The translations under genes were made by a program, and so were the position numbers. From the NCBI RefSeq assembly GCF_012927165.1, contig NZ_JABBGA010000007.1:186001-250000 (forward strand): a DNA stretch of 64,000 nucleotides, given 5' to 3'. The notes under the pieces are model-generated. The model did not search any database. It had not been told where the DNA came from and worked only from the letters and a program-made list of their open reading frames with translations. Of this stretch, positions 30,177 to 60,023 are shown one piece after another. Positions within the stretch are counted from its first letter, which is position 1; the number at the start of each line of letters is the position of its first letter. Origin of the DNA: Zoogloea dura. GTDB taxonomy: Bacteria; Pseudomonadota; Gammaproteobacteria; Burkholderiales; Rhodocyclaceae.

Positions 30177-35687
<5,511 letters not shown>

Positions 35688-35797: not shown

Positions 35798-37546
35798 ATG
35801 AAAACCCTGCCCTTGCTGCTTGCCACCCTGTGGGCGCCTGCCCTGGCGCTCGCCGCACCTGCTGCCAAGCCCGACAGCGCTCCAGCCAAGCGCCCCAACA
35901 TCCTGTTGATCGTCGCCGATGATCTGGGCTACACCGACCTGGGCAGCTTCGGCGCCGAGATATCCACGCCCAACCTGGACGCGCTGGCCCGCACCGGGGT
36001 GCGCATGACCAGTTTCTACGCCGCACCCTTCTGCTCGCCCACCCGGGCCATGTTGATGTCCGGCTCGGACAATCACCTGGTCGGTTTTGGCGACATGGCC
36101 GAGCTGATCACCGCCGAACAGAAGGGCAAGCCCGGTTACGAGGGCTACCTCAACGACCGCGTCGTGCCGATGGCCCAGATCCTCAAGGATGGCGGCTATC
36201 GCACCCTCATGGCCGGCAAGTGGCACCTCGGTGTGCCCGAACAGTTCAGCCCGGCCACCCGTGGCTTCGAGCAGTCCTACGCCATGGTGATGGGGGGCGC
36301 CAGTCACTGGGGCGACCAGAGCGGTATCGTCGCCCTGGACCCGGACAAGCCGCCCAAGGCGGTGTATCGGGAGAACGGCAAGGCCATCGACATCCCCCGT
36401 GACGGCTTCTACTCGTCGGTGGCCTTCACCGACAAGCTGCTGGAGTACATGAAGAACGGCGAAGACACCGGCAAGCCCTTCTTTGCCTACCTGGCCTTCA
36501 CCGCGCCCCACTGGCCGCTGCACGCACCCGACGAAGACATCGCCAAATACGAAGGCCGCTACAAGGAAGGCTACGACAGGCTGCGCAAGGAACGCCTCGA
36601 GCGCATGAAGAAGCTCGGCCTCGTCCCCGCCGACACGCCTGTGTACGAAGGCCACCCCCATTGGCCCCGCTGGGACAGCCTGACGCCCGAGCAAAAGGCC
36701 TCCGAAGCCCGCCGCATGACGGTTTACGCTGCCATGATCGACAACATGGACCGCCAGATCGGCCGTGTGCTCGACTACATCAAGCAAAAGGGCGAGCTGG
36801 ACAATACCTTCGTCTTCTTCATGTCCGACAACGGCGCCGACGGCAACTCGGTGTACGACGTGGGCCGCACCCGCGAGTGGATCCACAAGGACATGGACAA
36901 CAGCACCGCCAACATCGGCAAGCGGGGCTCCTTCATCGAGTACGGGCCGGGCTGGGCGCAGGTGGGGTCGACACCCTTCAAGCTCTACAAGTCCTTCATG
37001 TACGAGGGTGGCATCTCGGTGCCCGCCATTGCCTGGGGGCCGGGCATCGGAGGCGGCACCATCAAGCGTGAGTTTGCCCACGTGATGGACGTAGCCCCCA
37101 CCATCTACCAGATCGCCGGCGTGAACCACCCGGGCACCCAATACCAGGGCCGTGAAGTGCTGCCCCTGCGGGGCAAGTCCATGCTGCCCTACCTGCAAGG
37201 CAAGGCGCCCGGCGTGCGCGGCAAGAACGACGTGGTGGGCTGGGAACTGGGCGGCCGCAAGGCCTTGCGCAAGGGCGACTGGAAGATCGTCTACGCCAAC
37301 ACGCCCTGGGGCGAAGGCAGCTGGGAGCTCTACAACATCACCAAGGACCGCACCGAGAGCCGCAACCTCGCCACCGCCCAACCGGCCAAGCTCAAGGAAC
37401 TGCTGGCCGACTGGAAACAGTACGTCGCCGAGACCGGCACCCTGGAAATCGACAACCTGGCCAACCGGCCCGGCTACAGCAACGGCGGCAAGTACTACGA
37501 CGACCTGTCCATCGAAGTAAAGATGCAGCCGCGCGAAGTACGCTGA
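35798..37546 (+). CDS. Secreted arylsulfatase-type sulfatase
   Basis: This 582-residue protein begins with a signal peptide (MKTLPLLLATLWAPALALAA). The metal-binding start NILLIVADDLGYTDLGSFG and the formylglycine motif CSPTRAMLMSG (the Cys is converted to formylglycine by a maturase) identify the sulfatase family; KWHLG and SDNGAD blocks fit too. It probably hydrolyses sulfate esters in the periplasm; the substrate is unknown. GAGGAG lies about 10 bases before the ATG. The gap of 110 bases from uvrA has nothing definite. No maturase gene is in the window. Confidence 0.93.
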   Translation: MKTLPLLLATLWAPALALAAPAAKPDSAPAKRPNILLIVADDLGYTDLGSFGAEISTPNLDALARTGVRMTSFYAAPFCSPTRAMLMSGSDNHLVGFGDMAELITAEQKGKPGYEGYLNDRVVPMAQILKDGGYRTLMAGKWHLGVPEQFSPATRGFEQSYAMVMGGASHWGDQSGIVALDPDKPPKAVYRENGKAIDIPRDGFYSSVAFTDKLLEYMKNGEDTGKPFFAYLAFTAPHWPLHAPDEDIAKYEGRYKEGYDRLRKERLERMKKLGLVPADTPVYEGHPHWPRWDSLTPEQKASEARRMTVYAAMIDNMDRQIGRVLDYIKQKGELDNTFVFFMSDNGADGNSVYDVGRTREWIHKDMDNSTANIGKRGSFIEYGPGWAQVGSTPFKLYKSFMYEGGISVPAIAWGPGIGGGTIKREFAHVMDVAPTIYQIAGVNHPGTQYQGREVLPLRGKSMLPYLQGKAPGVRGKNDVVGWELGGRKALRKGDWKIVYANTPWGEGSWELYNITKDRTESRNLATAQPAKLKELLADWKQYVAETGTLEIDNLANRPGYSNGGKYYDDLSIEVKMQPREVR

Positions 37547-37589
37547 GGTTTGCTTCGTTTCAGCAGGCGGGGGGCGCTGTGCTCCCCTG

Positions 37590-37624
37590 CGAGATCAGGC
37601 TCCACGGGGGCCTGATCTCGTTTC
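37590..37624 (+). terminator. Intrinsic terminator of the sulfatase gene
   Basis: CGAGATCAGGC (37590-37600) and GCCTGATCTCG (37610-37620) form a perfect 11-base-pair stem with a 9-base loop, followed by TTTC. It lies 44 bases after the sulfatase stop. The T tract is short but the stem is strong. Confidence 0.85.
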
Positions 37625-37695
37625 TGCACCCGGTTTACTCAGTCAAGCGACCGCGGATTTGACATCCGGGGGCGCGGATGTGAGTTACGCCGTCC

Positions 37696-37884
37696 GTTAA
37701 CTCAAATCCGCGGAGCGTTAACTCAGTTAACGAAGTCGTTAACTGACATCTGCAGTGCGTTAACTGAGTTAACGAACTTGTGAAGTGACATCCGGGCTTC
37801 GTTAACTGAGTTAACGAAGCTGTGAACTGACATCCGCGATGCGTTAACTCAGTTAACAGGTTCGTGAACTGAGTTCTGCGGTGG
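37696..37884. repeat. 42-bp tandem repeat array rich in GTTAAC palindromes
   Basis: One 21-base half unit (37696-37716) is followed by four 42-base units starting at 37717, 37759, 37801 and 37843. Units share GTTAACTSAGTTAACGAA followed by GTGAACTGACATCCG-type sequence; each is itself two related 21-base halves. Degenerate copies extend left to about 37640 and right to about 37905. Read on the minus strand the period is 14 codons (7-residue half repeats such as QLTTSLT and ELTLRGF), open from 37635 to 38123, but that frame runs into the inverted repeat and is probably not a gene. There are no unique spacers, so it is not a CRISPR. Confidence 0.9.
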
Positions 37885-37994
37885 CGTGATCGAGTTTTGC
37901 TGGAGGGGATGGAAATTCGGCCAAGGACGGACTTGGGCTTGTCCGGATTTCTGTGTTCGAGGCCTTTGTCTGGTCGGCTTTCCGTTGTTCCGCC

Positions 37995-38553
37995 TTGGAT
38001 TGGCCGGGATTTCGCCCCGGCGGGCGACCCCTTTCTTTGCGTCGCCAAAGAAAGGGGGAAAGAAAGGCGACCCGGCTTCCCCGGTCGTCCGCGTAGCGGA
38101 CGACTCCCCTGCGCTGCTCGCATCGGGCGGCCGGCGCGGAACTCGTCGGCTACGCCTCCTCAGACAGCCGCGCCGGACTTCCCCGCCCGCTGCTGCGCTG
38201 CTCGGCGGGTCAGAACGGGCTTTCAGCAAACACCGAGCCTCTACGGAAAGCTCGGTGGGTGCGAGACGCTGGGGTTTTGCTTTGCGTTGATCATCAACAA
38301 CTACTTCAGCAAAGGCTCGGTGTTTGCGAAAAGCCCGTTCCGACCCGCCGAGCAGCGGAACGGCAGGCGGGGAAGTCCGGCGCGGCTGTTTGAGCCCGCA
38401 GGGCGAGTTCCGCGCCGGCCGCCTGGCGTGAGCAGCGCAGGGGAGTCATTCGCGCAAGCGAATGACCGGGGAGGCGGGTCGCCTTCTTTGCCTCCTTTCT
38501 TGGCGAAGCAAGAAAGGAGGTCGCCCGCCGGGGCGAACTCCCGGCCAATCCAA
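37995..38553. repeat. 559-bp imperfect inverted repeat element
   Basis: The left arm (37995-38250) and right arm (38304-38553) are reverse complements with scattered mismatches and small gaps, around a centre of about 53 bases. Both arms start with TTGGATTGGCCGGG and contain CGCCCCGGCGGGCGAC, GGCGGCCGGCGCGGAACTCG and AACACCGAGCCT blocks. Open frames across it are mirror images and probably spurious. Similar long GC-rich inverted repeats occur dispersed in many proteobacterial genomes; I infer a non-autonomous mobile or repeat-family element, but no transposase or target duplication is visible. Confidence 0.85.
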
Positions 38554-39073
38554 CGTGGAATACGGGGAAAACCGGCCAGTAAAGGCACAGACGCAGTATG
38601 ACAACCTACGACCTGAGCAGCATCAGCCTGCAGCCCTTGGTGACTCCGGTAGTCGACGGAAGGTAAAGGTGCGAGCGGTCAGTGGCTTCGGGGTCGTAGC
38701 GGGCGACTTCAGCTACCTCGGCGTTTTGACCAATGAATCGAACCGCCGCCCAGAACGCCTGAAAGAAACAGTCTGAATTACCGTTGAGGATGGGGAGCGG
38801 CAACACGTAAAGCGCATCTCCGATATTCCTCTACGTCCGACACCCACGCTTTTCCATATATCGCGCGCACTGCGTGCGAGAACTCCCGGCTTTGGAGCAA
38901 AGCGTTCGACGTCATTTTGACGGGCGTCTTCGCGCTGTAGGATTGCGTCACCTGGCAAGTCTGCGTCGGCCCGCAGATAATCTTCCGGGCAGCGCAGGGG
39001 CAGAAGCGAACCAGCACGCCCCACTAATCGCCACAAACATGCGACGCTCACACTTTACAAGGAGGAATGGTGA
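38554..39073. other. Low-GC spacer before the KAP NTPase gene
   Basis: About 520 bases with clearly lower GC than the flanking core. I see no confident gene. Short minus-strand frames (38606-38806, 38713-39051 and 38778-39017) lie in different registers and could be the remnant of a decayed gene, but the translations are unrecognised. The region must hold the promoter of the KAP gene. AAGGAGGA (39060-39066) is that gene's ribosome site. Confidence 0.4.
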
Positions 39074-42049
39074 ATGGCGGCTACCAAGCACACGATGAAG
39101 ATGCCGGAACTTCTGGTCTTTACCAAGATGTTCGTTGTGGGCTTTGTAGCCGCAGAAGTTTGCAGGGCAGCTTACTACCTAGGAACTGCGTTTGCTCCTG
39201 CGATAGCCGACTTTTCCCTTTGTGCAAGGGGCATACTGGTTCTCATCGGGCTGGCGATTTGTGTGGTATACGCCGTCAATCGTGGTGCGCATATTTCTGC
39301 TGTACAAATGGGGCGAAGCCTTCGTCTCGACCTACTCATCGCAATGTGCTTGGGAGCGTGGTCAAACGAGTTGGCCATGCCTTGGTTTTCTAAGTTCCAT
39401 GCAGCATTAAAAGCGTCGGACCCGTATTGGGCGCCAGTTGCTCTTCTGCTGTTCTGCACTGCGCTTTTGTCCCCGCTCGTCCAGCGGCATTGGCCTAGGA
39501 GGCGGCAGACTCCTTCGCAACTCCATTTCCTTGCGGACGAAGAGATCGGACGCGAGAACGACGATCTGCTTTCGAATGAGACCCAAGCAAAGTCGTTCGC
39601 AGAGACAGTCCTCGCAAGCGGTGCGCATTCGGGATTGGTATTCGGTGTCGATGGCCCGTGGGGTGTGGGTAAGACCAGCTTCATTAATCTTGCCGAGCGC
39701 TACTGGGAACGAGCTGCGGACAAGGTGATCGTTTGTCGGTTTGAGCCCCTGCGATATGCGTCGGAGCCAGATCTTGCCGATCGCTTGATTCGCGACCTGT
39801 CTGCTGCGATTCAGAGCAAGGTCTTTGCACCGGAGTTCCGTCCAGCAGCCTCCCGATACTCTCGACTCATCAAGGGGAAGGCGGACGTTTCGTTCCTAGG
39901 TTTCAAGCTTTCCCTGGAGCCATCGCAGGAAACTGTTGATGAACTGCTTGATGACATTGATGAGGTCCTTCGTCGCATTGGTCGACGAGTGATTGTTGTC
40001 ATCGACGACTTAGATCGTTTGGACGCAAAGACCGTCAACAACGTCCTGTTCGCAACTCGGCGCACATTCAAGTTGTCGCAAGCGACCTACGTCCTTTGCT
40101 ATGACACTGAGGTACTGGCCGGCGGCAAGGAGGAAGGATCCAGAGCGCGTGAATTCCTTGAGAAGTTTGTGACAGTCAAACTGAGCTTGTTCGTGGATAG
40201 TTCCAGTATCCGCAATTTTCTGCGGCGTGACTGGGGACGCGCCGAAAGTCAGCTCGGCTCAGTGCCGTCAGACACGATGGTCAAGCTTGGTGCCGTTCTC
40301 AATGAGCTTGCGAATATTCTGGATGGCGACTCTGCGGCAAAGTACCTGCCTTTGGTCGGCGATCTGCGCAAGGTCAAGCGCTTCATCAATGCGATTCTTC
40401 TCATGCAGATTGAGAAGACGAACCTGGGGCGTACCGACTTCGACAAGCGTGACCTAATTAACCTGATGCTGCTGCATTTGAACTATCCAGGGTTGTTCAG
40501 GCGCATATACGCCGAGGAGACAGAGGGGCGCAGTGGTATTTTCTCAGTTAAGCTGGAGTACGACGATCCGGGGTTCAAGAACGCCAAAGGCTTTGCACAG
40601 GTTAAGGAAGAGCACCAAGGAGCTGCCAAGTTCTTGCTAGAAGAGTTGTTTGATGTGGGGATATTAGAGCTAGGCGACGGGCGCAACGTTGAAGAGTCGG
40701 TCCTTCGGTCTCGTGCGTGTTTCAACAAGGGCGGCACCAGAAACCTGGAGAACTACTTGAAGCTCATCGTGCGATTTGCAACGCCGGAGCCGCAAGAGAC
40801 CTTTGTTCTCTACCAAACAGCTGTGGATCGAGTTCGCAAGGGGCAATCCATTGCTTCGGTACTCGTAGAGGCGGACTTTTTGTTGGAACGAACAGAGCAA
40901 GCGCACGACCAGTTCTGGCGAGTGCTGGTCAGTCAGGCCTACGACTTCACTAGCGCGACCGCCGAAGACGCCATTGAAACGCTCGTCGAGTACGTGCCTC
41001 GATATTCGTCGTTCGACAACGATGATCGGGGCCTGCGGCCGAGGTCGATTTACTCGTTGTTGCTGCTGTTGGATCGCGCAGGCTGGGGGCGTACGGCTGG
41101 CCGACGACGGACAAACAGTCCGGAAAACGTCATAGAGATCGCGCGGCGCATCTTTGGCGAGCAAGGTTTCGTTGGCAAAGGCCTGCTGGAGCGGCTTACC
41201 AGCACAGACCGTGGCGTACTGGGCTGGAACGATCTCATGTTGTTCAGGTTGCAGTGCTCGGCGGATCGCGGTGGTCAGTTGTACAACCTACACACAGCAC
41301 TCATCGTCGACCAGGACATGTCAGCTCCGACGTCCGGGTCGGTCAGTCGACTGGCGTTACTAGGGATGAGGAAGCTCTCTCAACGCGTTTTTGCACTTTT
41401 CAAGCGTTCCTACATTGACACTGGACGGAACTTCATTACAGAAGCGTATGAAGTTCCCGTAGACGCGCTCCTAGGCAAGGCCTTTGTCCATCTTCATGAA
41501 CAGGCTTCGCGGGACCCCGGATCCGAGCACGGCGACACAACGATGTCACTTCGAGTCGCCGCTGCACGCTCCTTCGCCGCTTCGTTCGTGATCTATCAGC
41601 TCAGCAATGCGCTCGCTCCGAATGGCGCAGGCGTCGGTTGCGGCCACTACGATGAAGTCGGGACTGAGGACCTCGGCGGGATATCGAAGCAGATGAACGA
41701 CTATGTCTTCGGCTTTTGCTTCAATCCGCAGATCGATGACGATAATGTGCTCCGATTCCTCGATCACTGCCTATCTCATTTGAGTAGCCCGTTCCATACA
41801 GGTCGAGATGAGGGCGGCTTCGTTGCGACCAAGACAGAGTTACCTGGTGGACTAGACCCGAAAGCGATGGGTATGTACTGGCTGCAACATCGCGACTACA
41901 TACGGGGGCTTGGACTCCAAGACGGTGGGCGATGCGTGTTTATGCCTGGCTACACGGCTTCCTATCACGACGACCTTGCTGGCGTGTTTGCCGTGCTCGA
42001 CGAACTAGCTGAAGAGGTGGCTTCCGCTACGCCTGATTCAGACGGCTGA
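39074..42049 (+). CDS. Membrane-anchored KAP-family P-loop NTPase, candidate defence gene
   Basis: This 991-residue protein has four predicted N-terminal membrane helices (about residues 13-35, 46-67, 82-103 and 113-135). A KAP P-loop domain follows: Walker A GVDGPWGVGKTSF at about 191-203 and Walker B VIVVIDDLDRLD at about 306-317, with the KAP-type RFIN-like segment KVKRFINAILL. The C-terminal half (about 450-991) is unrecognised. KAP NTPases include the phage-exclusion protein PifA, and some occur in other defence loci. AGGAGG lies 8 bases before the ATG. GC is visibly lower than the neighbours, with many A/T-ending codons, and repeats lie to the left. It stands alone, with no obvious partner. 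Confidence 0.85.
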   Translation: MAATKHTMKMPELLVFTKMFVVGFVAAEVCRAAYYLGTAFAPAIADFSLCARGILVLIGLAICVVYAVNRGAHISAVQMGRSLRLDLLIAMCLGAWSNELAMPWFSKFHAALKASDPYWAPVALLLFCTALLSPLVQRHWPRRRQTPSQLHFLADEEIGRENDDLLSNETQAKSFAETVLASGAHSGLVFGVDGPWGVGKTSFINLAERYWERAADKVIVCRFEPLRYASEPDLADRLIRDLSAAIQSKVFAPEFRPAASRYSRLIKGKADVSFLGFKLSLEPSQETVDELLDDIDEVLRRIGRRVIVVIDDLDRLDAKTVNNVLFATRRTFKLSQATYVLCYDTEVLAGGKEEGSRAREFLEKFVTVKLSLFVDSSSIRNFLRRDWGRAESQLGSVPSDTMVKLGAVLNELANILDGDSAAKYLPLVGDLRKVKRFINAILLMQIEKTNLGRTDFDKRDLINLMLLHLNYPGLFRRIYAEETEGRSGIFSVKLEYDDPGFKNAKGFAQVKEEHQGAAKFLLEELFDVGILELGDGRNVEESVLRSRACFNKGGTRNLENYLKLIVRFATPEPQETFVLYQTAVDRVRKGQSIASVLVEADFLLERTEQAHDQFWRVLVSQAYDFTSATAEDAIETLVEYVPRYSSFDNDDRGLRPRSIYSLLLLLDRAGWGRTAGRRRTNSPENVIEIARRIFGEQGFVGKGLLERLTSTDRGVLGWNDLMLFRLQCSADRGGQLYNLHTALIVDQDMSAPTSGSVSRLALLGMRKLSQRVFALFKRSYIDTGRNFITEAYEVPVDALLGKAFVHLHEQASRDPGSEHGDTTMSLRVAAARSFAASFVIYQLSNALAPNGAGVGCGHYDEVGTEDLGGISKQMNDYVFGFCFNPQIDDDNVLRFLDHCLSHLSSPFHTGRDEGGFVATKTELPGGLDPKAMGMYWLQHRDYIRGLGLQDGGRCVFMPGYTASYHDDLAGVFAVLDELAEEVASATPDSDG

Positions 42050-42483
42050 GTATGATCCTCGGAGAGCTCAGTCCTATCAGTCGGAGATAGTGCTTCAAGG
42101 CTGACTCGGCGCTGAGCCCGGCGCAGTTATGGCCCAAACCGCCGATCTTGACGCTGCATACGTTCTCCGGCGACTACAACTGTTTTTCGCTGTTCAGCGT
42201 AGACTGGGCCTTCGAACACCAACGACCGCAATCGCTGGAAGCAGCCATCGGACGTTCCAGATCGAACGTCCGCTTTGGGTCGGATCCAGTCTGCTGGCAG
42301 CCGGGAAAGCTGTCGTTCAGCCCTGACGTAGCCTGGGCGACAGCTGACTGCCGCATAGCTGCCACTCCGTCTGCTGACCATGAGCGTCAGCAAAGGCCGA
42401 AAAGCCGCCCCTCACCCATCGGGCTTGAGCCCAGCAACCACCAACCCTTGCCCGGGACCGCAGCTCCCCTCACCCCGCCAAAA
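42050..42483. other. Spacer downstream of the KAP gene, with a 9-bp hairpin
   Basis: About 430 bases with no convincing gene. CGGACGTTC (42250-42258) and GAACGTCCG (42265-42273) make a perfect 9-base stem with a 6-base loop. The text around it (ACGTCCGCTTTGGGTCGGATC) resembles dispersed intergenic sequence found in several proteobacteria, so this may be the eroded right edge of an insertion. GC rises again toward the iclR stop. Confidence 0.4.
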
Positions 42484-43296
42484 CTACGCACCGCCTCCCC
42501 CCCGACCCTCCCCCAACCCCTCCGCAATCGCCCTCGCCGTACCCTGCAAATCCTCCAGATGCGCTTCCACGACCTTGCTGCGCAGTTTGTACCGCCGTGG
42601 CCACACCAGGTTGATGCAGCCGGGGACGCCGGTCGGGGTGAGGATGGGGACGGCGATGGCGTCGAAGCCGTCGTCGAACACGCTGATGTCTTCCTCTGCA
42701 CCGCCGAAGCCCGGATCCCGGACCGCATAGCCTTGTTGCCGGGTTTCGGTGAGGAGGGCGTCAAGCCCTGCTTTCAATACGCGGGCGCTCAGGGGGTTGG
42801 CGGGGGGATGTTCGGCGTAGTGGGCGAGGGCGGCTTCGCGTTCTGCGTCGGGGCAGAAGGCGAGCCAGGCGCGGCCGGGGGCGGAGAGGATCAGGTCCAC
42901 CCGGAAGCCGATCTGGTAGCGCGGGTTCATGGCCAGGCCGGAGAGGCGTCGGGAGCTTTCGGCCAGTTCCATCTGGAAGTTGTCGTAGATGAGCAGGTCG
43001 GAAGGCCACAAGGCTTTGCGTTGCAGGGCGGCGAGGTGGGGGGCGGCGAGCTCGGCGAAGCGCAGGTTGCGTTCGGCGGGGCGGCTGCCGATGTGCAGGG
43101 ACACGCTGCGTCGCCAGCGTCCGTCGCCGATGGCGCGCCAGGCCAGGCCGGCGGCTTCGAGGGTGTGCAGGATGCGCAGCAGGGTGGGCTTGGGCAGGGT
43201 GGTGCGCAGGTGCAGATCCTGCAGTGCCCGGCCTTCGTGCTGCTCGAGCAGGCGCAGGACTTCGAGTCCGCGCTCGAGGGCCCGTATGGACTTCAT
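42484..43296 (-). CDS. IclR-family transcriptional regulator
   Basis: This 270-residue protein has an N-terminal winged helix (SIRALERGLEVLRLLEQHEG, then LPKPTLLRILHTLEAAGLA) and a C-terminal IclR effector domain with VPILTPTGVPGCINLVWPR. The start MKSIRALERG at 43296 is backed by GGAGAA about 6 bases upstream; a longer start is rejected. IclR proteins respond to small aromatic or carboxylic ligands. It is divergent from pldA with 89 bases between, and may control neither or either neighbour; no catabolic operon is adjacent. Confidence 0.92.
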   Translation of the reverse strand: MKSIRALERGLEVLRLLEQHEGRALQDLHLRTTLPKPTLLRILHTLEAAGLAWRAIGDGRWRRSVSLHIGSRPAERNLRFAELAAPHLAALQRKALWPSDLLIYDNFQMELAESSRRLSGLAMNPRYQIGFRVDLILSAPGRAWLAFCPDAEREAALAHYAEHPPANPLSARVLKAGLDALLTETRQQGYAVRDPGFGGAEEDISVFDDGFDAIAVPILTPTGVPGCINLVWPRRYKLRSKVVEAHLEDLQGTARAIAEGLGEGRGGGGA

Positions 43297-43385
43297 CTGT
43301 TCTCCGCTTAAGAGGCTTTCCGGCTCGACAGTATGGCGCGTGGCGCCCACAATTCGAGGCCCTGACCTGCTCCGGAGTGTTCTTG

Positions 43386-44384
43386 ATGCGGCATCCCAAT
43401 CGATCGAAGGGGCCTGGCAGCGCCGCGCTCTTCATCCTGTTGTGCTGCGTTTCGCAGGCTTACGCTGGCGAACCGTCCACCTGTGCCGCCATTGCCGACA
43501 ATACCGAACGCCTGGCCTGCTATGACCAGGCCGTGGGGCGGCCCCACCAGGAAGCGCCACCCGCTGTAGAAACCGGCAACACGGCGCTGAGCGCCCGCTG
43601 GGAGCTGGATGCGGAGGACAAGCGTGGCACCTTCCTGATCCGTCCGTACCGGCCGACCTACTTGCTGCTGGGCCGATGGAGCAATACCCCCAACCGGCAG
43701 CCGGGGTCGCCGGCCCGGGACCACACGGTGACCGAGCCGATGGACGTGGCGCCGGTGGAGGCCAAGTATCAGATCAGTTTCAAGACCAAGCTGTGGGAAG
43801 GCTTGGTGGGCCACCACGGTGACCTGTGGCTGGGTTATACCCAGCAATCCAACTGGCAGGTGTACAACAAGAGCAATTCCTCGCCCTTCCGCGAGACGGA
43901 CTACGAGCCCGAGCTGATGGCGGTGTTTCGCAGCAACCTGGATGCGGGCCTGGGCTTCAAGGTGAAGATGTTGTCGGTGGGCATCAACCACCAGTCCAAC
44001 GGACGCGCCCAGCCGCTGTCGCGCAGCTGGAACCGGCTGATGACCCAGGTGGGGGTGGAGCGGGGCGATTTTGCGCTGCTGCTGCGCGGCTGGCACCGCT
44101 TCGAGGAGAAGAGCAGCAACGACGACAACCCGGACATCACCCGCTACCTGGGCAATGGCGACATCCAGGCCATGTGGAAGCTGGGTGAGCACGGCATCGG
44201 CCTGAACCTGCGCGGCAATCTGTTCGACAGCCGCGGTTCTGCCCAGCTGGACTGGAGCTTCCCGATCCACCGCAACCTGAAGGGCTATCTGCAGCTGTTC
44301 AGCGGCTACGGCGAGACCCTGATCGACTACAACCACCGCCAGACCACCTTCGGTTTCGGGGTGTCGCTGGTGGATTGGCTGTAG
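43386..44384 (+). CDS. pldA: Outer-membrane phospholipase A1 (PldA)
   Basis: This 332-residue protein has a signal peptide (about residues 1-27, ending QAYA) and then a STCAAIADNTERLACYD segment seen in this family. The beta-barrel catalytic motif NHQSNGRAQPLSRSWNR carries the His/Ser/Asn set of PldA. The C terminus ends in the aromatic GVSLVDWL of an outer-membrane barrel. It should hydrolyse phospholipids in the outer leaflet under membrane stress, working as a calcium-bound dimer. ATG 43386 is the first start giving a signal peptide. It converges with the next gene, leaving only 6 bases. Confidence 0.94.
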   Translation: MRHPNRSKGPGSAALFILLCCVSQAYAGEPSTCAAIADNTERLACYDQAVGRPHQEAPPAVETGNTALSARWELDAEDKRGTFLIRPYRPTYLLLGRWSNTPNRQPGSPARDHTVTEPMDVAPVEAKYQISFKTKLWEGLVGHHGDLWLGYTQQSNWQVYNKSNSSPFRETDYEPELMAVFRSNLDAGLGFKVKMLSVGINHQSNGRAQPLSRSWNRLMTQVGVERGDFALLLRGWHRFEEKSSNDDNPDITRYLGNGDIQAMWKLGEHGIGLNLRGNLFDSRGSAQLDWSFPIHRNLKGYLQLFSGYGETLIDYNHRQTTFGFGVSLVDWL

Positions 44385-44390
44385 GGGCGT

Positions 44391-46859
44391 TCAGGTTTCG
44401 GGAACGCGTCCGAGCAGGGCGGTGAACCAGAAGGTGCTGCCTTTGCCCGGGGTGCTGCTGACGCCGCTGCGGCCGCCCATCAGTTCGGCCAGCTGGCGGT
44501 TGATGGCCAGGCCGAGGCCGTTGCCGCCATGCTGGCGGGTCGGCGAGGCGTCGCCCTGCTCAAAGCTCAGGAAGATGCGCTCCTGGTCCTCCAGGGGCAC
44601 GCCGATGCCGGAATCCTCCACTTCGAAACGCACCAGCAGGCGCTCGCCGCGATAGTCCTGGATGCGGATGCGCAGGGCGACGAAGCCGCAGGGGGTGAAT
44701 TTCACCGAGTTGCTGATGTAGTTGATCAGCATCTGGGCGAGCCTGGCCCGGTCGCCGCGTAGCTGTGCGGGCATGCCGGTGATGTCCACGCGGTAGTCCA
44801 GGGCCTTGCTGCGCAGGCTTTCGCCGGTGGCGCGGAGGACGTCCTGCAGCAGCTCGGCCAGCATGAAGTGCCGCTCGTGGATCTGCATGCGCCGGGCCTC
44901 GATCTGTGCCAGGTCGAGGATGTCGTCGAGAACCAGGTGCAGTTGCCGTGCCGCGCTGATGACCTTGTCCAGGCGCATCTGCAGACCGGTGTCGTCGATC
45001 TTGCCGCGGATCATCGAGGTGAAGCCGAGGATCGCATTGAGGGGCGTGTGGATCTCGTGGCTCATGTTGGCGAGGAAGCTGCTCTTGGCCCGGTTGGCGG
45101 CTTCGGCCAGCTCCTTGGCCGCCAGCAGTTCGGCGGTGCGCAGGCCGACCTGTTCCTCGAGCTGCTGGCGGTTCTGTTCCAGCTCGCGGAGCATGCGGGT
45201 TTTCTCGGTCTGGTCCACGAACTGGATCAGCAGGTGGCGCTCGGCGCGGATCTGCACCGGCAGGATCAGGCAGTCGGCCCAGATCTCGCGGCCAAAGGAG
45301 GTGACCACGTGGATCTGCCGCTGCTGCTGGATGTTGCTGTCGAGGGCGTGCAGGCAGTCGTCCAGGAGGCCCGCGGCTTTCCAGGTCTCGAGCTGGCGGA
45401 AGTTCTGTTCCAGCAGTTGGGCGAGGGTGGCTCCGACCACGCGCGCGTAGGCTGCGTTGGCCATCACGCAGGGGCCGGCCGCCTCGTAGACGCCGATCGG
45501 GACGGGTGAGGCCTGGAGCACCGCGTCGCTGAAGCGTACGGCCTCCTGCAGGCGGTTCTCGGCCAGCCGGCGCTCGTCCACCTCGGCCTTGAGGCGGGTG
45601 TTGATGTCGGCCAGTTCGGCCGTCCGCTCCGCGACACGCTGTTCGAGCAGGTCGCGCTCGCGGTTGAGGTCGGTGAGGGCCTGGCGGCGCTGGCGGGCAA
45701 CACGGACCAGGGACAGGATCAGGGCGGTCTGCAGGGCCAGGACCAGCGCGGTTGCCAGGATCTCGGTGCGGTGCCGGTCCCAGAAGCCGATCGGCGCGTT
45801 GATGACCGTACTGCCTCTGGGCAGGCTGTCCGGTGCGATGCCGAAGCGCTGCAACACCGTGTGATCGAAGATGTCGCGGGTCGGTGAGCTCATCTTCACC
45901 GGGATGGAGGCGGGCGCCTCATCATCGAGGATGCGCAGGGCGATGGCGGCGGCCTCGCGGCCCTGGTCGCGGCCGTTGAGGACGTGGCCGCCGATCACCC
46001 CGGTGCCCAGGTGGAAGTCCCAGAACGCGTAGACGGGGACGGGGCTGGCCGCGGCGACCAGGCGGCCGTTCTCGATGGGAGTCAGGGCCCGTCCCACGCC
46101 CTGGTCCGACGTCTGGCCGACCAGGAACACCAGGCTGTCCTTGCCCAGCCCGGCGAGGCGGCCGCGGATCTCGGCCATGGTCGCATCCTTGAGCACGATC
46201 AGCTCGTGCTGCTGGCGCAGCAGCGGGAAGACCCGGCTCTCTGCGTCGCGGGTGTTCATGGCGCTGCTGGTGTCGCCGGTGGACAGGATGAAGACGAGCT
46301 TCCTGATGCCGCTATGCACCTTGAGGGCGAGGGCCACGGTGGCCGGGATGTCGATCTCTTCATTGACCCCGGTGATGTCCGGCACGTTGCGGATCACCTC
46401 GGGCATGAAGTTGTTGTAGCCGCAGAAGACGATGGGCTGGCCGGGAAACAGCTTCTGGCGGTAGCGCAGGGCAAAATCGAAGGCCGCGTTGTCGGAGGCG
46501 ATGATGAGGTCGTGCCGGAAGTTGCGGTACTTGGCGCCCAGCGCATCGGCGATGATCGCCTCCTGCTTGCGGTCGGGGAAGCGGCGGCTGTCGAGGTATT
46601 CCACCGACAGTTCCACTGGCCTGGCCCGGCTGCCGAGGACCTCCCGGATCCCCTGGCCTGTTTCGCGGCCCCAGGCATTGCCCGGGTCGTAGGAATCGAT
46701 GTGGAGGATGCGCGGCGGGGGCGTTTCGTCCGCGGCGTGCCCGGCGGCGGGCATGACCAGGGTGATGAGCAGCAGGTACACGGCAAACAGACCGGCCGGC
46801 AGCCCGGGGTGCTGGCGGGGGGGAGGGTTCCTACCGGTCAGGGGGACGGAGCTGCGCAT
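44391..46859 (-). CDS. Sensor histidine kinase with periplasmic ABC-type ligand-binding domain
   Basis: This 822-residue kinase has an N-terminal hydrophobic segment (about residues 20-42) and a periplasmic region resembling the ABC_sub_bind/TrpX family (about 55-330: RILHIDSYDPGNAWG, VFCGYNNFMPEVIRNVPDIT). A second membrane helix (about 365-385), a coiled coil, PAS, HisKA and an ATPase domain (SNSVKFTPCG, GNGLGLAINR) follow. The phospho-box reads HEIHTPLN rather than the usual HEIRTPLN. No receiver is attached or adjacent, so the partner regulator is elsewhere. The start is uncertain: 46859 places the signal close to the N terminus, but 46955 is open. Confidence 0.88.
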   Translation of the reverse strand: MRSSVPLTGRNPPPRQHPGLPAGLFAVYLLLITLVMPAAGHAADETPPPRILHIDSYDPGNAWGRETGQGIREVLGSRARPVELSVEYLDSRRFPDRKQEAIIADALGAKYRNFRHDLIIASDNAAFDFALRYRQKLFPGQPIVFCGYNNFMPEVIRNVPDITGVNEEIDIPATVALALKVHSGIRKLVFILSTGDTSSAMNTRDAESRVFPLLRQQHELIVLKDATMAEIRGRLAGLGKDSLVFLVGQTSDQGVGRALTPIENGRLVAAASPVPVYAFWDFHLGTGVIGGHVLNGRDQGREAAAIALRILDDEAPASIPVKMSSPTRDIFDHTVLQRFGIAPDSLPRGSTVINAPIGFWDRHRTEILATALVLALQTALILSLVRVARQRRQALTDLNRERDLLEQRVAERTAELADINTRLKAEVDERRLAENRLQEAVRFSDAVLQASPVPIGVYEAAGPCVMANAAYARVVGATLAQLLEQNFRQLETWKAAGLLDDCLHALDSNIQQQRQIHVVTSFGREIWADCLILPVQIRAERHLLIQFVDQTEKTRMLRELEQNRQQLEEQVGLRTAELLAAKELAEAANRAKSSFLANMSHEIHTPLNAILGFTSMIRGKIDDTGLQMRLDKVISAARQLHLVLDDILDLAQIEARRMQIHERHFMLAELLQDVLRATGESLRSKALDYRVDITGMPAQLRGDRARLAQMLINYISNSVKFTPCGFVALRIRIQDYRGERLLVRFEVEDSGIGVPLEDQERIFLSFEQGDASPTRQHGGNGLGLAINRQLAELMGGRSGVSSTPGKGSTFWFTALLGRVPET

Positions 46860-46995
46860 CGGTCGGTATCGGGCACCAGATTTCGAGGTGGGCTGGCTTG
46901 CCGGTGTATCCGGGCGATGTTGCCCGGGGAAACCGGGAGAGTGCAAGCACCGCATCGGACGATAGAATCCTTAATCTTTCGCTCAAGTATCGCCC

Positions 46996-47544
46996 ATGCC
47001 GAGTCAGCTTGCCCTGAAATATCTCCACGGCTACCCCGAGTCACTGGTCTCCCAGGTCAGGTCACTGCTGGCGCAGGGCCAGCTGGGGCCGTGGCTGCGT
47101 GCCCGCTACCCGGTCCTGCATGAGGTGCGCAACGACACCGCTTTGTACGAATACGTGACTGAGCTGAAGTCGCGCTACCTGCGCAATGCCGAGCCGCTCA
47201 GCAAGGTGGGCTTCGATGGCAAGCTGCAGAGCATCCACAACGCCCTGGGGACCCATACCACGGTGGCCCGGGTGCAGGGAGGCAAGATCAGGACCAAGCG
47301 GGAGATCCGTGTCGCGACCCTGTTCCGCGAGGCGCCGCCGGAGTTTCTGCGCATGATCGTCGTGCATGAGTTGGCGCATCTTAAGGAGCGCCAGCACGAC
47401 AAGGCCTTCTACCAGCTGTGCTGCCGGATGGAGCCGGACTACCACCAGCTGGAGTTTGATGTGCGGGCCTGGCTGAGCTGGGAGGAGGCCCAGGGGCAGC
47501 GCCTGTGGGTGCCGGATGGCACCGCGCCGCCCGCGCCAGGCTGA
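46996..47544 (+). CDS. YgjP-like (DUF45/M48-type) zinc metallopeptidase
   Basis: This 182-residue cytoplasmic protein has the zinc motif VVHELAHLKERQHDKAFY, where HELAH and the later H give a typical HExxH...H arrangement, and a following CC pair. It matches the YgjP/DUF45 domain family. Activity and substrate are not established for the family. It is convergent with the HHH gene, with 37 bases between stops and no clear terminator. Confidence 0.85.
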   Translation: MPSQLALKYLHGYPESLVSQVRSLLAQGQLGPWLRARYPVLHEVRNDTALYEYVTELKSRYLRNAEPLSKVGFDGKLQSIHNALGTHTTVARVQGGKIRTKREIRVATLFREAPPEFLRMIVVHELAHLKERQHDKAFYQLCCRMEPDYHQLEFDVRAWLSWEEAQGQRLWVPDGTAPPAPG

Positions 47545-47581
47545 GGTGAGGCGGACGGCTGGCGCCGCCCGCATCCAGTGC

Positions 47582-48691
47582 TCAGAGGCTGAGGCTGCCC
47601 TTGAGCTTGTCGAAGCTCTTCACGCCCATACCCTTGACCCCGACGAGTTCGTCGAGGCTCTTGAAGGGGCGGGCGGCCACGATGGCGGCGGCCACCGCCT
47701 TGGACAGGCCCTTGACGGCAGCCAGCTCGGCGGCGGTCGCGGTGTTGATCGATACGCTGGCCGGCGCCGCGGCAGCAGCTGCGGCGGCCTTGGGTTTGGC
47801 GGCCGGCTTGGCCTTGCTCGCGGATGGGCCCGCGGCCGGCTCGGCCGCAGATTCGGCAGCTTTGGCGGGAGCTTCCGCGGTAACTGCCGCGGCGGCCGGT
47901 GCTTCCTCTGCCGGTGCAGCGGCGGCAGGCGCGGCGTTCCAGGTGACCGGCAGCGGGAAGTTGCTGAAGTCACGGGTCACGTAGCCCTTGGCCGACCATT
48001 CGCGCAGCAGCAGGGCGATGTGCCAGGTGCCGGCGGGGTGGGTGGCGAGGGCCTGCGTGAAGGCCAGATCCTGCCAGGCTTGCTGGCCGGCCAGGCTGCC
48101 GAGGGCGACGCTGACCAGGGGCTGACCCTCCGGCTCGCCGGCCTGGTAGGGGGCGGGCAGGGCCCACAGTTCCAGGGCCAGGGAGCCGCTCAGGTTGTCT
48201 TCGGTGCGCGGGTTGCTGATGCGCTCCACCGCCATGGTGACGCCGTCTTCCGCCAGGCTGAAGCTGCTGGTGCCGTCGAGGCGCGGCTGCATGAAGCTCT
48301 CGGCGCGGGGGAAGTTGACGTAGTCCTGGACCTGCGCGAAGCAGCCATCCTGGCCGGCGGCGAGGATCAGCACCAGGTTGTGGTCGGCACGGCCAGCCGG
48401 CGGAAAGGCGTCGGTGGAGGCGCTGAACCAGGTGGTGCCGCTGTCGCCGGGCGCGGCAAGCGGTATTTCGGCGATCTTGGCGGCGGAAACGGGACGGCCG
48501 TCGAAGGGGGTGTCGCAGGCCCACAGTTGCAAGGCCCATTCCTGGCCTAGGGCTGCGGCGGGATCGTCAACCAGCAGTTCCGCGTCGAGGCGGACGCGGT
48601 CGCCATCGAAGGCGTAGCCGTGTTCAAAGCCGATGCGGATGGCGCTGGAGGCGGCGCTGAGGGGGGCCTGGAGGGTTTGGAACGTGGTCAT
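47582..48691 (-). CDS. Helix-hairpin-helix protein with unusual N-terminal domain
   Basis: This 369-residue protein ends in a ComEA-like HHH domain (VSINTATAAELAAVKGLS, then SLDELVGVKGMGVKSFDKLK). A long Ala/Pro/Lys-rich linker (about 245-305) separates it from an N-terminal 240-residue beta-rich region (ALQLWACDTPFDGRPVS, then YVNFPRAESFMQP) that I do not recognise. HHH domains bind DNA non-specifically. There is no signal peptide, so it is not a standard ComEA. AGGATT precedes the ATG at 48691. It may be a nucleoid or DNA-uptake-associated protein; function is unproven. Confidence 0.7.
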   Translation of the reverse strand: MTTFQTLQAPLSAASSAIRIGFEHGYAFDGDRVRLDAELLVDDPAAALGQEWALQLWACDTPFDGRPVSAAKIAEIPLAAPGDSGTTWFSASTDAFPPAGRADHNLVLILAAGQDGCFAQVQDYVNFPRAESFMQPRLDGTSSFSLAEDGVTMAVERISNPRTEDNLSGSLALELWALPAPYQAGEPEGQPLVSVALGSLAGQQAWQDLAFTQALATHPAGTWHIALLLREWSAKGYVTRDFSNFPLPVTWNAAPAAAAPAEEAPAAAAVTAEAPAKAAESAAEPAAGPSASKAKPAAKPKAAAAAAAAPASVSINTATAAELAAVKGLSKAVAAAIVAARPFKSLDELVGVKGMGVKSFDKLKGSLSL

Positions 48692-48857
48692 GGGGAATCC
48701 TGCCGGAATGCGAGGTCGCGGATTCTGCGGGTGCGCCGATGGCAGCGTCAATCTCTTGGCGATTGAATTTTTGGATGCACCGAGTCGGGGCGCAAAAAGC
48801 CGGAAAGCCGCACCAATACTGGGCTTGCACTGTGTTGGTGCGCTTATGTCAGGCACA

Positions 48858-50312
48858 TCAGAGCAGGACGATGTCGAACTGCTCCTGGGCGTAGCTGGCT
48901 TCGGGGTGCAGCGAGATCGTCTTGTCGATGAAATCCGACAGCATGGCCAGGGACTGGGACTCTTCCTCGTGGAAGAGGTCGATCACATTGGGGGCGGCCA
49001 GCACGCGGAACTCCCGTGCGTTGAACTGGCGCGCCTCGCGCAGTAGCTCGCGGAGGATCTCGTAGGCGACCGTGCGGGCGGTCTTGACCTCGCCGCGCCC
49101 GCTGCAGGTGGGGCAGGGTTCGCACAGCAGGTGGGCGAGGGATTCCCGGGTGCGCTTGCGGGTCATCTCCACCAGGCCGAGGCTGGTGAAGCCATTGACC
49201 GTCATCTTGGTGTGGTCGCGGGCCAGGGCCTTGCGGAATTCCTCGAGCACGGCGTTGCGGTGTTCGGGGCTCTCCATGTCGATGAAGTCGACGATGATGA
49301 TGCCGCCCAGGTTGCGCACCCGCAGCTGGCGGGCGATCGCCTGGGCGGCTTCCAGGTTGGTCTTGAAGATGGTGTCGTCGAAATTGCGGGCACCCACGAA
49401 GCCACCGGTGTTGACGTCGATGGTGGTCATCGCCTCGGTCTGGTCGATGATCAGGTAGCCACCGGACTTCAGATCGACCCGTCGGGCCAGGGCCTTCTCG
49501 ATCTCCGCCTCCACGCCGTGCAGGTCGAACAGCGGGCGCTCGCCGGTGTAGTGGTCGAGCAGCGGCTGAACCTGGGGCATGTATTCGCTGGCGAAGCTGG
49601 TGAGCTTCTGGAAGTTCTCCCGGGAGTCGGCGACGATGCGTGTGGTGGCGTCGGTGACCAGGTCGCGCAGGACGCGCTGGGCCAGGTTGAGGTCCTGGTA
49701 GAGCACGAAGGGCGGGCGGGCGCCGACCGCCCGGTTGCGGATCTCGGCCCACAGTTTCTTGAGGTAGGCGATGTCGGCGGCGAGTTCGTCGTCGGAGGCG
49801 TTCTCGGCCATGGTGCGCACGATGTAGCCGCCCGGCTCGTTGGGCGGCAGCAGGCGGCTGACCCGTTCGCGCAGGGCTTCGCGGCCGGCTTCGTCACCGA
49901 TCCGCTGGGAGATGCCGATGTGCTTGTCCTGGGGCAGGTACACCAGCATGCGGCCGGCGATGGAGATCTGGGTGGACAGGCGGGCGCCCTTGGTGCCCAG
50001 GGGGTCCTTGAGTACCTGCACGATCAGGTTCTGGCCTTCGGACAGGATCCGTTCGATCGGGCGCACGGCTTCCCCGGCATGGCGGTCAGACCAGATGTCG
50101 GCCACGTGCAGGAAGGCGGTGCGCTCCAGGCCCACGTCCATGAAGGCGGACTGCATGCCCGGCAGCACGCGCACGACGCGGCCCAGGTAGATGTTGCCGA
50201 CGATGCCGCGGCTGGCGGTGCGCTCGACGTGCACTTCCTGGACGACGCCCTGCTGCATGAGGGCGACGCGGGTTTCCTGAGGGGTGAAATTGATCAGGTA
50301 TTCTTCGGACAT
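48858..50312 (-). CDS. rng: Ribonuclease G
   Basis: This 484-residue protein has the RNase E/G core: an N-terminal S1 domain (QEVHVERTASRGIVGNIYLG), catalytic TTIDVNTGGFVG and IIIVDFIDM blocks, and the zinc-link CEPCPTCSGRGE. It lacks the long C-terminal scaffold of RNase E, so it is RNase G. It matures the 5' end of 16S rRNA and degrades some mRNAs. Start MSEEYLINFTPQETRVALM at 50312 is the family start; an open extension to 50405 is rejected. maf lies upstream, in the usual maf-rng order. Confidence 0.96.
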   Translation of the reverse strand: MSEEYLINFTPQETRVALMQQGVVQEVHVERTASRGIVGNIYLGRVVRVLPGMQSAFMDVGLERTAFLHVADIWSDRHAGEAVRPIERILSEGQNLIVQVLKDPLGTKGARLSTQISIAGRMLVYLPQDKHIGISQRIGDEAGREALRERVSRLLPPNEPGGYIVRTMAENASDDELAADIAYLKKLWAEIRNRAVGARPPFVLYQDLNLAQRVLRDLVTDATTRIVADSRENFQKLTSFASEYMPQVQPLLDHYTGERPLFDLHGVEAEIEKALARRVDLKSGGYLIIDQTEAMTTIDVNTGGFVGARNFDDTIFKTNLEAAQAIARQLRVRNLGGIIIVDFIDMESPEHRNAVLEEFRKALARDHTKMTVNGFTSLGLVEMTRKRTRESLAHLLCEPCPTCSGRGEVKTARTVAYEILRELLREARQFNAREFRVLAAPNVIDLFHEEESQSLAMLSDFIDKTISLHPEASYAQEQFDIVLL

Positions 50313-55311: not shown

Positions 55312-57309
55312 ATGTCGCTCCTCCTCAACGCCCCTCAACGGGAAGCCATCCACTACCTGGACGGCCCGTGCCTGGTGCTGGCCGGCGCCGGCAGCGGCAA
55401 GACCCGCGTGATCACCCAGAAGATCGCCTACCTGATCACCGAGTGCGGTTTCAACCCCCACAACATCGCGGCCATCACCTTCACCAACAAGGCGGCCAAG
55501 GAGATGCTTGAGCGCATCACCAAGCTGATGGGCGGGCGGGGCAGCAAGGGGCTCACCGTGTGCACCTTCCACGCCATGGGGGTGCGCATCGTGCGCCAGG
55601 AGGCCGCGCTGCTGGGGCTCAAGCCCCAGTTCTCGATTCTCGACGCGACCGACACCACCCAGATCATCGCCGAGATGACGGGCAACACCGACAAGAGCCG
55701 GGCCAAGGCCCTGCAGTGGCAGATCTCCAGCTGGAAGAACGCGCTGGTCGAGCCCAACGAGGCGGCCCACCTCGCCAACGACGAGATCTCCTCCGCCGCG
55801 GCGCTGCTCTACATGGAATACGACAAGACCCTGCGGGCCTACCAGGGGGTGGATTTCGATGACCTGATCCGCCTGCCGGTGAAGCTCTTCGACGAGCACC
55901 CCGAGGTGCGCGAGCGCTGGCAGAACAAGCTGCGCTACCTGCTGGTGGATGAATACCAGGACACCAACCGGGCCCAGTACCGTCTGCTCAAGCTCCTCAC
56001 CGGCGTGCGCGGCGCCTTCACCGCGGTGGGTGACGACGACCAGGCCATCTATGCCTGGCGCGGCGCCGACGTGGAGAACCTGCGCCAGCTGCCGGTGGAC
56101 TACCCCAAGCTCAAGGTCATCAAGCTGGAGCAGAACTACCGCTCCACCACGCGCATCCTGCACGCCGCCAACACGGTGATCGCCAACAACGAGAAGCTCT
56201 TCGAGAAGAAGCTGTGGTCCGAGCACGGCGCCGGCGACCCGGTCACGGTGGTGGCCTTCCAGACCCCCGAGCACGAGGCCGAGTCGGTGGTCATGAAGCT
56301 GTCCGCCCACAAGTTCGAGCACCGCACCCACTTCAAGGACTACGCCATCCTCTACCGGGGCAACCACCAGGCCCGCCTGTTCGAGCAGCAGCTGCGCAAC
56401 CACAAGATCCCCTACGCCATCTCCGGCGGGCGCAGCTTCTTCGAAAACGCCGAGATCAAGGACCTGTGCTCCTACCTGCGCCTGATCGCCAATGAGGACG
56501 ACGATCTGTCCTTCATCCGCTCGGTCACCGTGCCGCGGCGGGGCATCGGCCCGGCCACCATCGAGTCGCTCGGCCGCTACGCCACCAACCGCAAGATCAG
56601 CCTGTTCACCGCGGTCTTCGAGGAAGGGGTGGCCGAGCACGTGGCGGCCCGCCAGCTGGAAGGGCTGCGCGAGTTCTGCCATTTCATGAACCGCATGGCC
56701 CACCGCGCCCCGCGGGAGCCCGCCGGGCAGGTCATCAACGACCTGGTCAAGGCCATCAACTACGAGGCCTGGCTGTACGAAAGCTGCGAGCCCCGCGAGG
56801 CCGAGACCAAGTGGAGCAACGTGGGCGACTTCACCGGCTGGCTCGGCCGCAAGGGCGAGGAGGACGGCAAGACCCTGATGGACATGATCCAGACCATCAG
56901 CCTGATCACCATGCTCGACAAGGACGACGAGGAACTGGACCAGGTCCAGCTCGCCACCCTGCACGCCTCCAAGGGCCTGGAGTTCAAGCACGTCTTCCTG
57001 GTCGGGGTGGAGGAAGGCCTGCTGCCCCACCAGTCCTCCATCGACGAGGACAAGATCGAGGAAGAGCGCCGCCTCATGTACGTGGGCATCACCCGCGCCC
57101 AGCGCAGCCTGACCATCAGCTACTGCGAACGCCGCAAGGCCGGCCGCGACGTGCGCACCTGCGACCCGTCGCGCTTCATCGATGAGATGGGCATGGACGG
57201 CATCCGGCGCAGCGACCGCAAGTCGGCCGAGCCGGTGACCAGGGAAGACGCCAAGGCGCGCATCGCCAACCTGCGCGCGATGCTGGGCAAGCCGGGCGGG
57301 GCGGGGTAG
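55312..57309 (+). CDS. rep: ATP-dependent DNA helicase Rep
   Basis: This 665-residue superfamily 1A helicase has AGAGSGKTRVIT (Walker A), GVDFDDLI, LVDEYQDTN (Walker B), GDDDQAIYAWRGA, LEQNYRST and VQLATLHASKGLEFKHVFLV motifs. The length and absence of the UvrD C-terminal extension favour Rep over UvrD/PcrA. It unwinds duplex DNA 3' to 5' and helps forks pass bound proteins. Start at 55312; the in-frame extension to 55300 is unlikely. It is followed by the accessory patch. Confidence 0.94.
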   Translation: MSLLLNAPQREAIHYLDGPCLVLAGAGSGKTRVITQKIAYLITECGFNPHNIAAITFTNKAAKEMLERITKLMGGRGSKGLTVCTFHAMGVRIVRQEAALLGLKPQFSILDATDTTQIIAEMTGNTDKSRAKALQWQISSWKNALVEPNEAAHLANDEISSAAALLYMEYDKTLRAYQGVDFDDLIRLPVKLFDEHPEVRERWQNKLRYLLVDEYQDTNRAQYRLLKLLTGVRGAFTAVGDDDQAIYAWRGADVENLRQLPVDYPKLKVIKLEQNYRSTTRILHAANTVIANNEKLFEKKLWSEHGAGDPVTVVAFQTPEHEAESVVMKLSAHKFEHRTHFKDYAILYRGNHQARLFEQQLRNHKIPYAISGGRSFFENAEIKDLCSYLRLIANEDDDLSFIRSVTVPRRGIGPATIESLGRYATNRKISLFTAVFEEGVAEHVAARQLEGLREFCHFMNRMAHRAPREPAGQVINDLVKAINYEAWLYESCEPREAETKWSNVGDFTGWLGRKGEEDGKTLMDMIQTISLITMLDKDDEELDQVQLATLHASKGLEFKHVFLVGVEEGLLPHQSSIDEDKIEEERRLMYVGITRAQRSLTISYCERRKAGRDVRTCDPSRFIDEMGMDGIRRSDRKSAEPVTREDAKARIANLRAMLGKPGGAG

Positions 57310-57523
57310 CGGCCTGCCCGGGCCCTTTCAAGTCAGGAAGGCCCGCCGGAGGGGCTGCGCAGCCCGATGAAGAGCACTCGACACGCCGGATCACCACGGG
57401 CTTCGTCGAGGGCGATTGGCCGGGGTGTGGTGTCGAGTAAATGACCTGCGCCAAGGGCTGGAGCACGCGCATGTCCAGTCGGTTCAACCCAGTTGGCGAT
57501 GGACGTTGGTGCCTGCCGCCGGA

Positions 57524-57976
57524 TTAATTGCCATACCGCTCGATGAGTTGCGTTGTTCGACGTGCCACCTCAGCCCGATAGGCGTCCATGCCCTTCTTCA
57601 GCTCTTCGTCTTCGCAACAGTCTAGCGTTGCTGTGATGGGTGGATGTGCCTTCCGATAGAGGGCAACGGTGCGTAAGTACGTGTCGTGATCATATCCTTC
57701 GGAGAAAGGCCAGAATAACCAGGGGTGTCCGGACTCCAGAAAACTGAGAGCTTGCATTATCTCAATGTCAAGTTCCATCTCCTTGGTCTTGACCCGCTTC
57801 TCGTAAGATCCTGCATGTATTTCCTGCAGATCGCGAACCAACAGGTAGGCTCTGGTGGAACTATTCATCTGCCAGAACTGAACGGAACCGATATAGGCGC
57901 CGGCAATGAACGAGATGAGCAGCGCGACAGCGGCCACTGCGCCGCCAAGTGCCAGGCGTATCGGCTTACGTATCAT
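57524..57976 (-). CDS. Hypothetical protein with one N-terminal membrane helix
   Basis: This 150-residue protein starts MIRKPIRLALGGAVAAVALL, with a single membrane helix to about residue 29, and the rest is soluble and charged (LFWPFSEGYDHDTYLRTVAL). It is unrecognised. It overlaps the next gene by 11 bases at its start, which supports ATG 57976 and joint translation. Base composition is lower in GC than the core neighbours. The 214 bases between it and rep contain a 9-base inverted repeat (57376-57384 / 57430-57438) and no gene. Confidence 0.6.
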   Translation of the reverse strand: MIRKPIRLALGGAVAAVALLISFIAGAYIGSVQFWQMNSSTRAYLLVRDLQEIHAGSYEKRVKTKEMELDIEIMQALSFLESGHPWLFWPFSEGYDHDTYLRTVALYRKAHPPITATLDCCEDEELKKGMDAYRAEVARRTTQLIERYGN

Positions 57977-58927: not shown

Positions 58928-58968
58928 GCTCCTCCTCCCGGCGGAACCCTTGTACCGATCTCGGTGCA

Positions 58969-59418: not shown

Positions 59419-59472
59419 CGGTTTGATGCTCGAGTTTGCCCGCGGCCGAAGGCCGTTAGCTGTTAAGGGTGT

Positions 59473-59947: not shown

Positions 59948-59951
59948 GATC

Positions 59952-60010: not shown

Positions 60011-60023
60011 GGTGTGGCGCGGG

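Follow-up and report, generated by a model that had tools for sequence, protein, structure and literature searches.

Introduction

Several described anti-phage proteins are built on a KAP nucleoside triphosphatase (NTPase) domain. PifA is a single-gene phage exclusion protein for which membrane depolarisation has been proposed; the part of the BASEL paper that deals with it describes PifA as a sensor of T7 products, with Gp1.2 as the product and Gp10 also playing a role, that kills via this depolarisation (PMC8594841). In a passage of PMC11846954, Tmn is presented as an anti-phage protein in which a KAP NTPase is combined with two transmembrane domains of an unusual kind; its working is still open according to the authors. 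QatA, which also has a KAP-type NTPase, belongs to the multi-gene system qatABCD. Here, we describe a further KAP-family gene, found in a stretch of 64,000 nucleotides from Zoogloea dura (contig NZ_JABBGA010000007.1, positions 186,001 to 250,000; the whole stretch is hereafter called the window, and its numbering is used throughout). The gene occupies 39074–42049 on the forward strand, starts with ATG and encodes a membrane NTPase of 991 residues. This is probably a defence protein, and we lean slightly toward a single-gene, horizontally moved one, acting against phages or other invading DNA. The genomic context supports defence; the mechanism is one that we infer.

Results

Architecture and conservation of the protein

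A first-pass annotation, made from the letters of this DNA, had predicted a solitary 991-residue KAP NTPase with four N-terminal membrane helices and an unrecognised C-terminal half, and had guessed reasonably at a role in defence. The open reading frame (ORF) list, Pfam, the alignment of homologs and the substitution rates all agree on a gene of this length. Pfam KAP_NTPase (PF07693) covers residues 169–443 (39578–40402, forward strand, as are all parts of the gene given below), with an E value of 2.5e-54 and 185 bits against a curated cut-off of 20. It is the sole Pfam match above its cut-off, and weaker AAA-type matches fall inside the same domain. In a 17-row alignment (the window protein and 16 homologs), G194, G199, K200, T201, D311 and D312 are invariant in all rows; K200, assigned to Walker A in the annotation, and D311/D312 are the residues that the annotation had singled out. 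Both motifs are intact in the window protein: Walker A is GPWGVGKT (residues 194–201; 39653–39676), and Walker B is VIVVIDD (residues 306–312; 39989–40009).

The region preceding the NTPase domain contains about four membrane helices (residues 10–139; 39101–39490), as judged from hydropathy in the 17 rows and from a low-confidence model. In the window protein, three strong Kyte-Doolittle helices were found (about 12–30, 47–65 and 118–136). A fourth hydrophobic stretch (about 83–105) clears a looser cut in 11 of the 17 rows, the window protein not being among them. Thus, the four predicted helices are a feature of the family that is not plain in the window copy. The AlphaFold 2 (AF2) model, of low confidence, places N-terminal helices at 10–44, 49–69, 72–81, 85–100, 102–113 and 120–139. 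Hydropathy revealed no hydrophobic segment between Walker A and Walker B of the window protein. The C-terminal half (residues 448–991; 40415–42046) is mainly helical in the model and belongs to no known family: this half (540 aa) gave no weighty match in Pfam, NCBIfam or the Protein Data Bank (PDB) sequences, just as the annotation had it. We regard it as a putative sensor.

The three parts differ in their degree of conservation. The mean identity to the window protein is 88% for residues 151–447, 68% for the C-terminal half and 58% for residues 1–150. The ratio of nonsynonymous to synonymous substitution rates (dN/dS), calculated for seven pairs, is 0.09–0.17 for the whole gene, which marks the ORF as a real gene that purifying selection maintains. 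By region, it is 0.032–0.083 in the NTPase, 0.105–0.187 in the C-terminal half and 0.099–0.316 in the N-terminal region; every part of the protein is maintained by selection.

Distribution and horizontal movement

The GC content of the gene is 55.1% versus 66.2% for the window, and the lowest-GC 2,976-bp stretch of the window coincides with the gene, which bears out the GC contrast noted in the annotation. The GC content at third codon positions is 0.62, as compared with 0.85–0.96 in four other genes. Among the homologs, the gene was also found to be lower in GC than its own flanks at 16 of 16 loci.

Full-length relatives with the same C-terminal half exist and are about 50–86% identical. Scanning genome contigs yielded 17 loci, including ones in Comamonadaceae, Cupriavidus, Rubrivivax, Thauera, Undibacterium, Propionivibrio, a metagenome-assembled genome of Lysobacteraceae, Vreelandella, Shewanella and Pseudomonas (L005 is Acidovorax sp. 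FJL06, and L017, L009 and L018 are Thauera, Propionivibrio and Accumulibacter records, respectively). In sampled whole genomes, the own genome counted, the gene is present in 3 of 60 relatives and in 7 of 296 genomes sampled from the family; for the order and the class, the counts are 2 of 399 and 1 of 369, respectively. One genome (G901) has two copies, 71% and about 50% identical. At least 80% of the gene was found in 4 of 72,556 plasmid records, all of Burkholderia glumae and about 54% identical; on one of them, p35s4p, the gene is annotated in three pieces.

The gene tree conflicts with the host genus. The window copy clusters with those of Acidovorax FJL06, 'Burkholderiales 8X' and Thauera (support 100/99), and the same-genus copy of genome G018, 68–69% identical, is placed elsewhere: none of 200 bootstrap trees joins the two. 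The insertion site is seen by comparison with a same-genus contig (L038), which matches the window at 36376–37858 (90%) and 42498–49220 (85%) and differs from it in 37859–42497. At the site of the KAP gene, L038 (1542–3437) carries about 1.9 kb of unrelated sequence with 46.9% GC, the three short low-GC ORFs of which (182, 113 and 77 aa) gave no Pfam match. Thus, the site accepts different low-GC cargo. The extent of the moving unit can be read from L005, which shares an upstream stretch in two blocks (38668–39073) and a downstream stretch (42058–42248; 68%), the two ends of the co-transferred unit. Loci L013, L044, L056 and L058 form another group, in which stretches are shared upstream and, over up to about 190 bp, downstream. 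At these comparable ends, sharing extends no further than about 400 bp before and 200 bp after the gene, and so the moving unit is little more than the gene.

Neighbourhoods of the homologs

When the flanking ORFs of the window and the 17 loci were clustered, three multi-locus clusters were obtained: a kinase-type one in seven (the window included), an efflux-type one in two, and one without identification in five. No cluster is fixed in place beside the gene, so the annotation's statement that conserved neighbours are lacking applies to the whole set, and a conserved housekeeping context, which it had named as counting against defence, did not appear. The annotation had also proposed a search for homologs with the same C-terminal half in defence islands; those found occur sporadically, have low GC and sit in a variety of settings, some of them mobile or defence-related, but a clear defence pair adjoins a minority of them.

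The mobile settings are as follows. At L008 and L010, phage-type integrases lie within a few hundred bases of the gene, and L010 has two tRNA-Phe genes about 3.4 kb upstream. At L015, guaA precedes the gene, and a direct repeat (69 columns, 80%) made up of the guaA end and a terminator-like stem (by eye) flanks the gene on both sides. On the B. glumae plasmids, the gene is downstream of site-specific integrases. On one of these, pR52p, a second, different KAP NTPase of 446 aa (L034 11078–12418) is situated directly downstream of the homolog and aligns weakly to the NTPase (24%, E 4e-4).

Two loci of this set carry clear defence pairs. At L004, HsdS and HsdR are located upstream, one 238-aa ORF separating HsdR from the gene. 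At L017, an OloA/OloB-like pair precedes the gene at a distance of 58 bp. The same trio occurs in another genome (L055), with Olo proteins 92 and 96% identical. L017 (1813–9458) and L055 have in common a 7,646-bp block, 97% identical, with unlike flanks and 124-bp inverted ends, beyond which no megablast match between the two was found. The trio fills the block: about 0.3 kb is left at each end, with no space for a transposase ORF. Other copies of the 124-bp repeat were found in the family; genomes G1027 and G1000 have it as inverted pairs with spacings of about 9 and 20 kb. Since it is dispersed in this way, it may be a recombination repeat rather than a private transposon end. In a genome of the window's genus, a NACHT-like 822-aa gene (L044 6743–9211) was seen 353 bp upstream of the homolog. 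The remaining neighbours examined are ordinary (metabolic, transport, signalling) or without assignment.

Repeats and other features of the window

The annotation had placed the gene between repeat-bearing flanks. This did not hold: the repeats are confined to the left side and belong to kinds scattered over the genome, and no repeat with E ≤ 1e-4 pairs the left and right sides of the gene within 9 kb. The repeat search gave a 42-bp tandem array with GTTAAC motifs (37625–37900), in which the left end of the L038 match falls and which is dispersed rather than gene-specific, and a palindromic dispersed element of about 590 bp (37975–38574), which is not part of the defence gene. The palindromic element is present at no fewer than 35 distinct places in its own genome, this copy included, in alignments of at least 559 bases and 85–100% identity; the count was made by hand from the 40 candidates scored out of 97 and is hence a lower bound. 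For six other matches of the 42-bp array, a copy of the palindromic element is no more than 200 bases away, and the two may be parts of one composite element. The right flank (42050–42490) has just two partial matches elsewhere in the genome.

Apart from the KAP gene, a second low-GC stretch (57–59%) extends over 57300–61000, in which a simple caller found just short ORFs. A very long ORF (1836 aa; 30177–35687) looks by eye like a tandem fusion of two UvrA-type excinuclease proteins.

Discussion

How the protein may work

One protein, which is under selection, crosses hosts and has no fixed partner, thus combines a membrane-helix region, an intact KAP NTPase and a conserved helical C-terminal half. 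From N to C terminus, it runs from the membrane region through the NTPase to the long helical part, the layout of an effector-switch-sensor protein. Given a role in defence, we slightly favour, on analogy, a membrane effector; whether the C-terminal half would be the sensor is, again by analogy, an even call. In this scheme, which follows the analogy with PifA, the C-terminal half would sense an infection product. The NTPase core, with a fold that may be like those of RdrA, ORC and NLR proteins, would then change its nucleotide state and oligomerise. Such switching would open or cluster the N-terminal helices and depolarise the membrane, so that the infected cell stops (abortive infection), as proposed for PifA. 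Put most specifically, the protein would be a one-protein NLR-like membrane immune sensor, consisting of a four-helix effector, an RdrA/ORC/STAND-like switch and a new helical sensor, and spreading as a nearly bare gene, at times with Olokun-like genes in the 7.6-kb block bounded by inverted repeats. We put this forward tentatively and consider it rather doubtful as a whole.

Evidence against and other explanations

Several observations weigh against a defence protein of this kind. KAP domains are widespread (the Pfam family is present in 10 of 14 control genomes), and the domain by itself is therefore no argument for defence. Ordinary window genes also match PADLOC models, and clear defence pairs adjoin just 2 of the 17 loci of the first set, counted with no matched control; the defence context thus comes down to two gene pairs. 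Even with the later locus, the adjoining cases are L004 and the one common block of L017 and L055, a minority. Kinase-type genes recur in the flanks of six loci and of the window, at varying distances and on varying strands. No relative was found in the phage records or IMG/VR contigs searched, and the repeats on the left are of a generic genomic kind and do not mark the ends of an island. As for structure, the predicted models are weak (mean pLDDT 60 and 64); the comparison of these models with RdrA gave TM-scores of 0.14–0.16 on the query, with solid overlap just at residues 148–369. Finally, nothing weighty aligns with PifA outside residues 155–476.

Among other explanations, the gene could serve a mobile element itself, in plasmid or island maintenance or in the exclusion of rival elements, instead of defending the host against phages. 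Copies on plasmids and beside integrases point this way, and the BASEL authors offer, as one possibility in the part of their paper on PifA, that immunity was not what PifA primarily evolved for (PMC8594841). However, of the neighbours submitted to Pfam, just those of L008 and L010 included integrases, and the short shared ends indicate that the gene also travels without element genes; we thus hold this explanation to be unlikely. Somewhat less likely still is a membrane NTPase for a niche or stress function, carried as accessory cargo with no part in conflict. The many metabolic, transport and signalling genes among the examined neighbours would suit it, whereas the sporadic presence, the low GC, the want of a fixed partner, the homology to the NTPases of PifA and QatA, and the block common with the Olokun-like pair would not.

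The movement of the Olo-like pair and the KAP gene as one block, together with the position downstream of HsdR in L004, might also suggest that the protein serves other defence systems (Olokun, type I restriction-modification) as an accessory subunit. The neighbours nevertheless vary between loci, and among the matches listed (124 flanking ORFs of 17 loci; 25 of 66 families), Hsd and Olo models match no more than single members, those of L004 and L017, which makes such a subunit improbable. Least credible is that the gene is a PifA ortholog and hence already described: the PADLOC and BLASTP matches to PifA, given below, speak for it, yet the weighty alignment is limited to a third of the protein or so, PifA has no place for the N-terminal helices, and its C-terminal half does not align. 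A defence protein acting alone is the reading that we prefer.

If so, the family would be of use beyond this locus. The mechanism of KAP NTPases such as PifA and Tmn is open, and a compact, one-gene family with this degree of conservation suits structure determination and mutagenesis. Its clean layout (helices, NTPase, C-terminal half) would allow a direct test of KAP proteins as membrane-acting immune switches, and the C-terminal half may represent a new type of phage sensor.

Comparison with known systems

The F-plasmid PifA used here (NC_002483, L048 12446–14671), annotated as 'P-loop NTPase fold protein', was recognised by its place next to pifC. The best PADLOC model for the window protein is PifA (E 3.4e-33, in two stretches), followed by QatA (E 1.2e-10). 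BLASTP against the F-plasmid protein aligned residues 172–475 with 25% identity (E 1e-14), and hhalign showed the KAP NTPase cores to be homologous over 155–476 (probability 97.7, E 2.2e-12). The kinship with PifA that the annotation pointed to is accordingly sound for the NTPase. It does not extend further: the NTPase begins near PifA residue 14–31, with no space for an N-terminal helix region, the C-terminal halves do not align, and the neighbours of PifA are unlike those of the KAP gene. With the homology confined to the NTPase, PifA is a cousin in its engine and a different protein.

The likeness to Tmn, by description, lies in a KAP NTPase with membrane helices; the difference, also by description, is that in the window protein the helices precede Walker A and none lies between Walker A and B. 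No family named Tmn appeared among the PADLOC matches at E ≤ 1, the presence of a Tmn model in the library being unchecked. QatA resembles the window protein in its KAP-type NTPase, with a weak NCBIfam profile match (E 5.8e-11), but the score for NF041923 is 41.8 bits against an equivalog cut-off of 600, and the KAP gene, unlike qatA, has no fixed partner genes. The predicted NTPase core may also resemble those of RdrA (RADAR), ORC and, with lower Z than for these two, the NLR/STAND proteins (Avs3, CED-4, Dark, NRC resistosomes). RdrA was absent among the PDB-sequence matches at E ≤ 1, and it works with RdrB according to PDB entry titles, whereas no RdrB lies directly beside the window gene: the nearest Pfam-matched genes encode a sulfatase (upstream) and a regulator of the IclR type (downstream), genes farther away not having been searched for RdrB. 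As for the NLR/STAND proteins, Pfam gives KAP, and not NACHT or NB-ARC, at E ≤ 0.1. The annotation had put the gene forward as an undescribed system; it would be not a new kind of system but a candidate sub-type within the KAP defence NTPases, beside PifA, Tmn and QatA.
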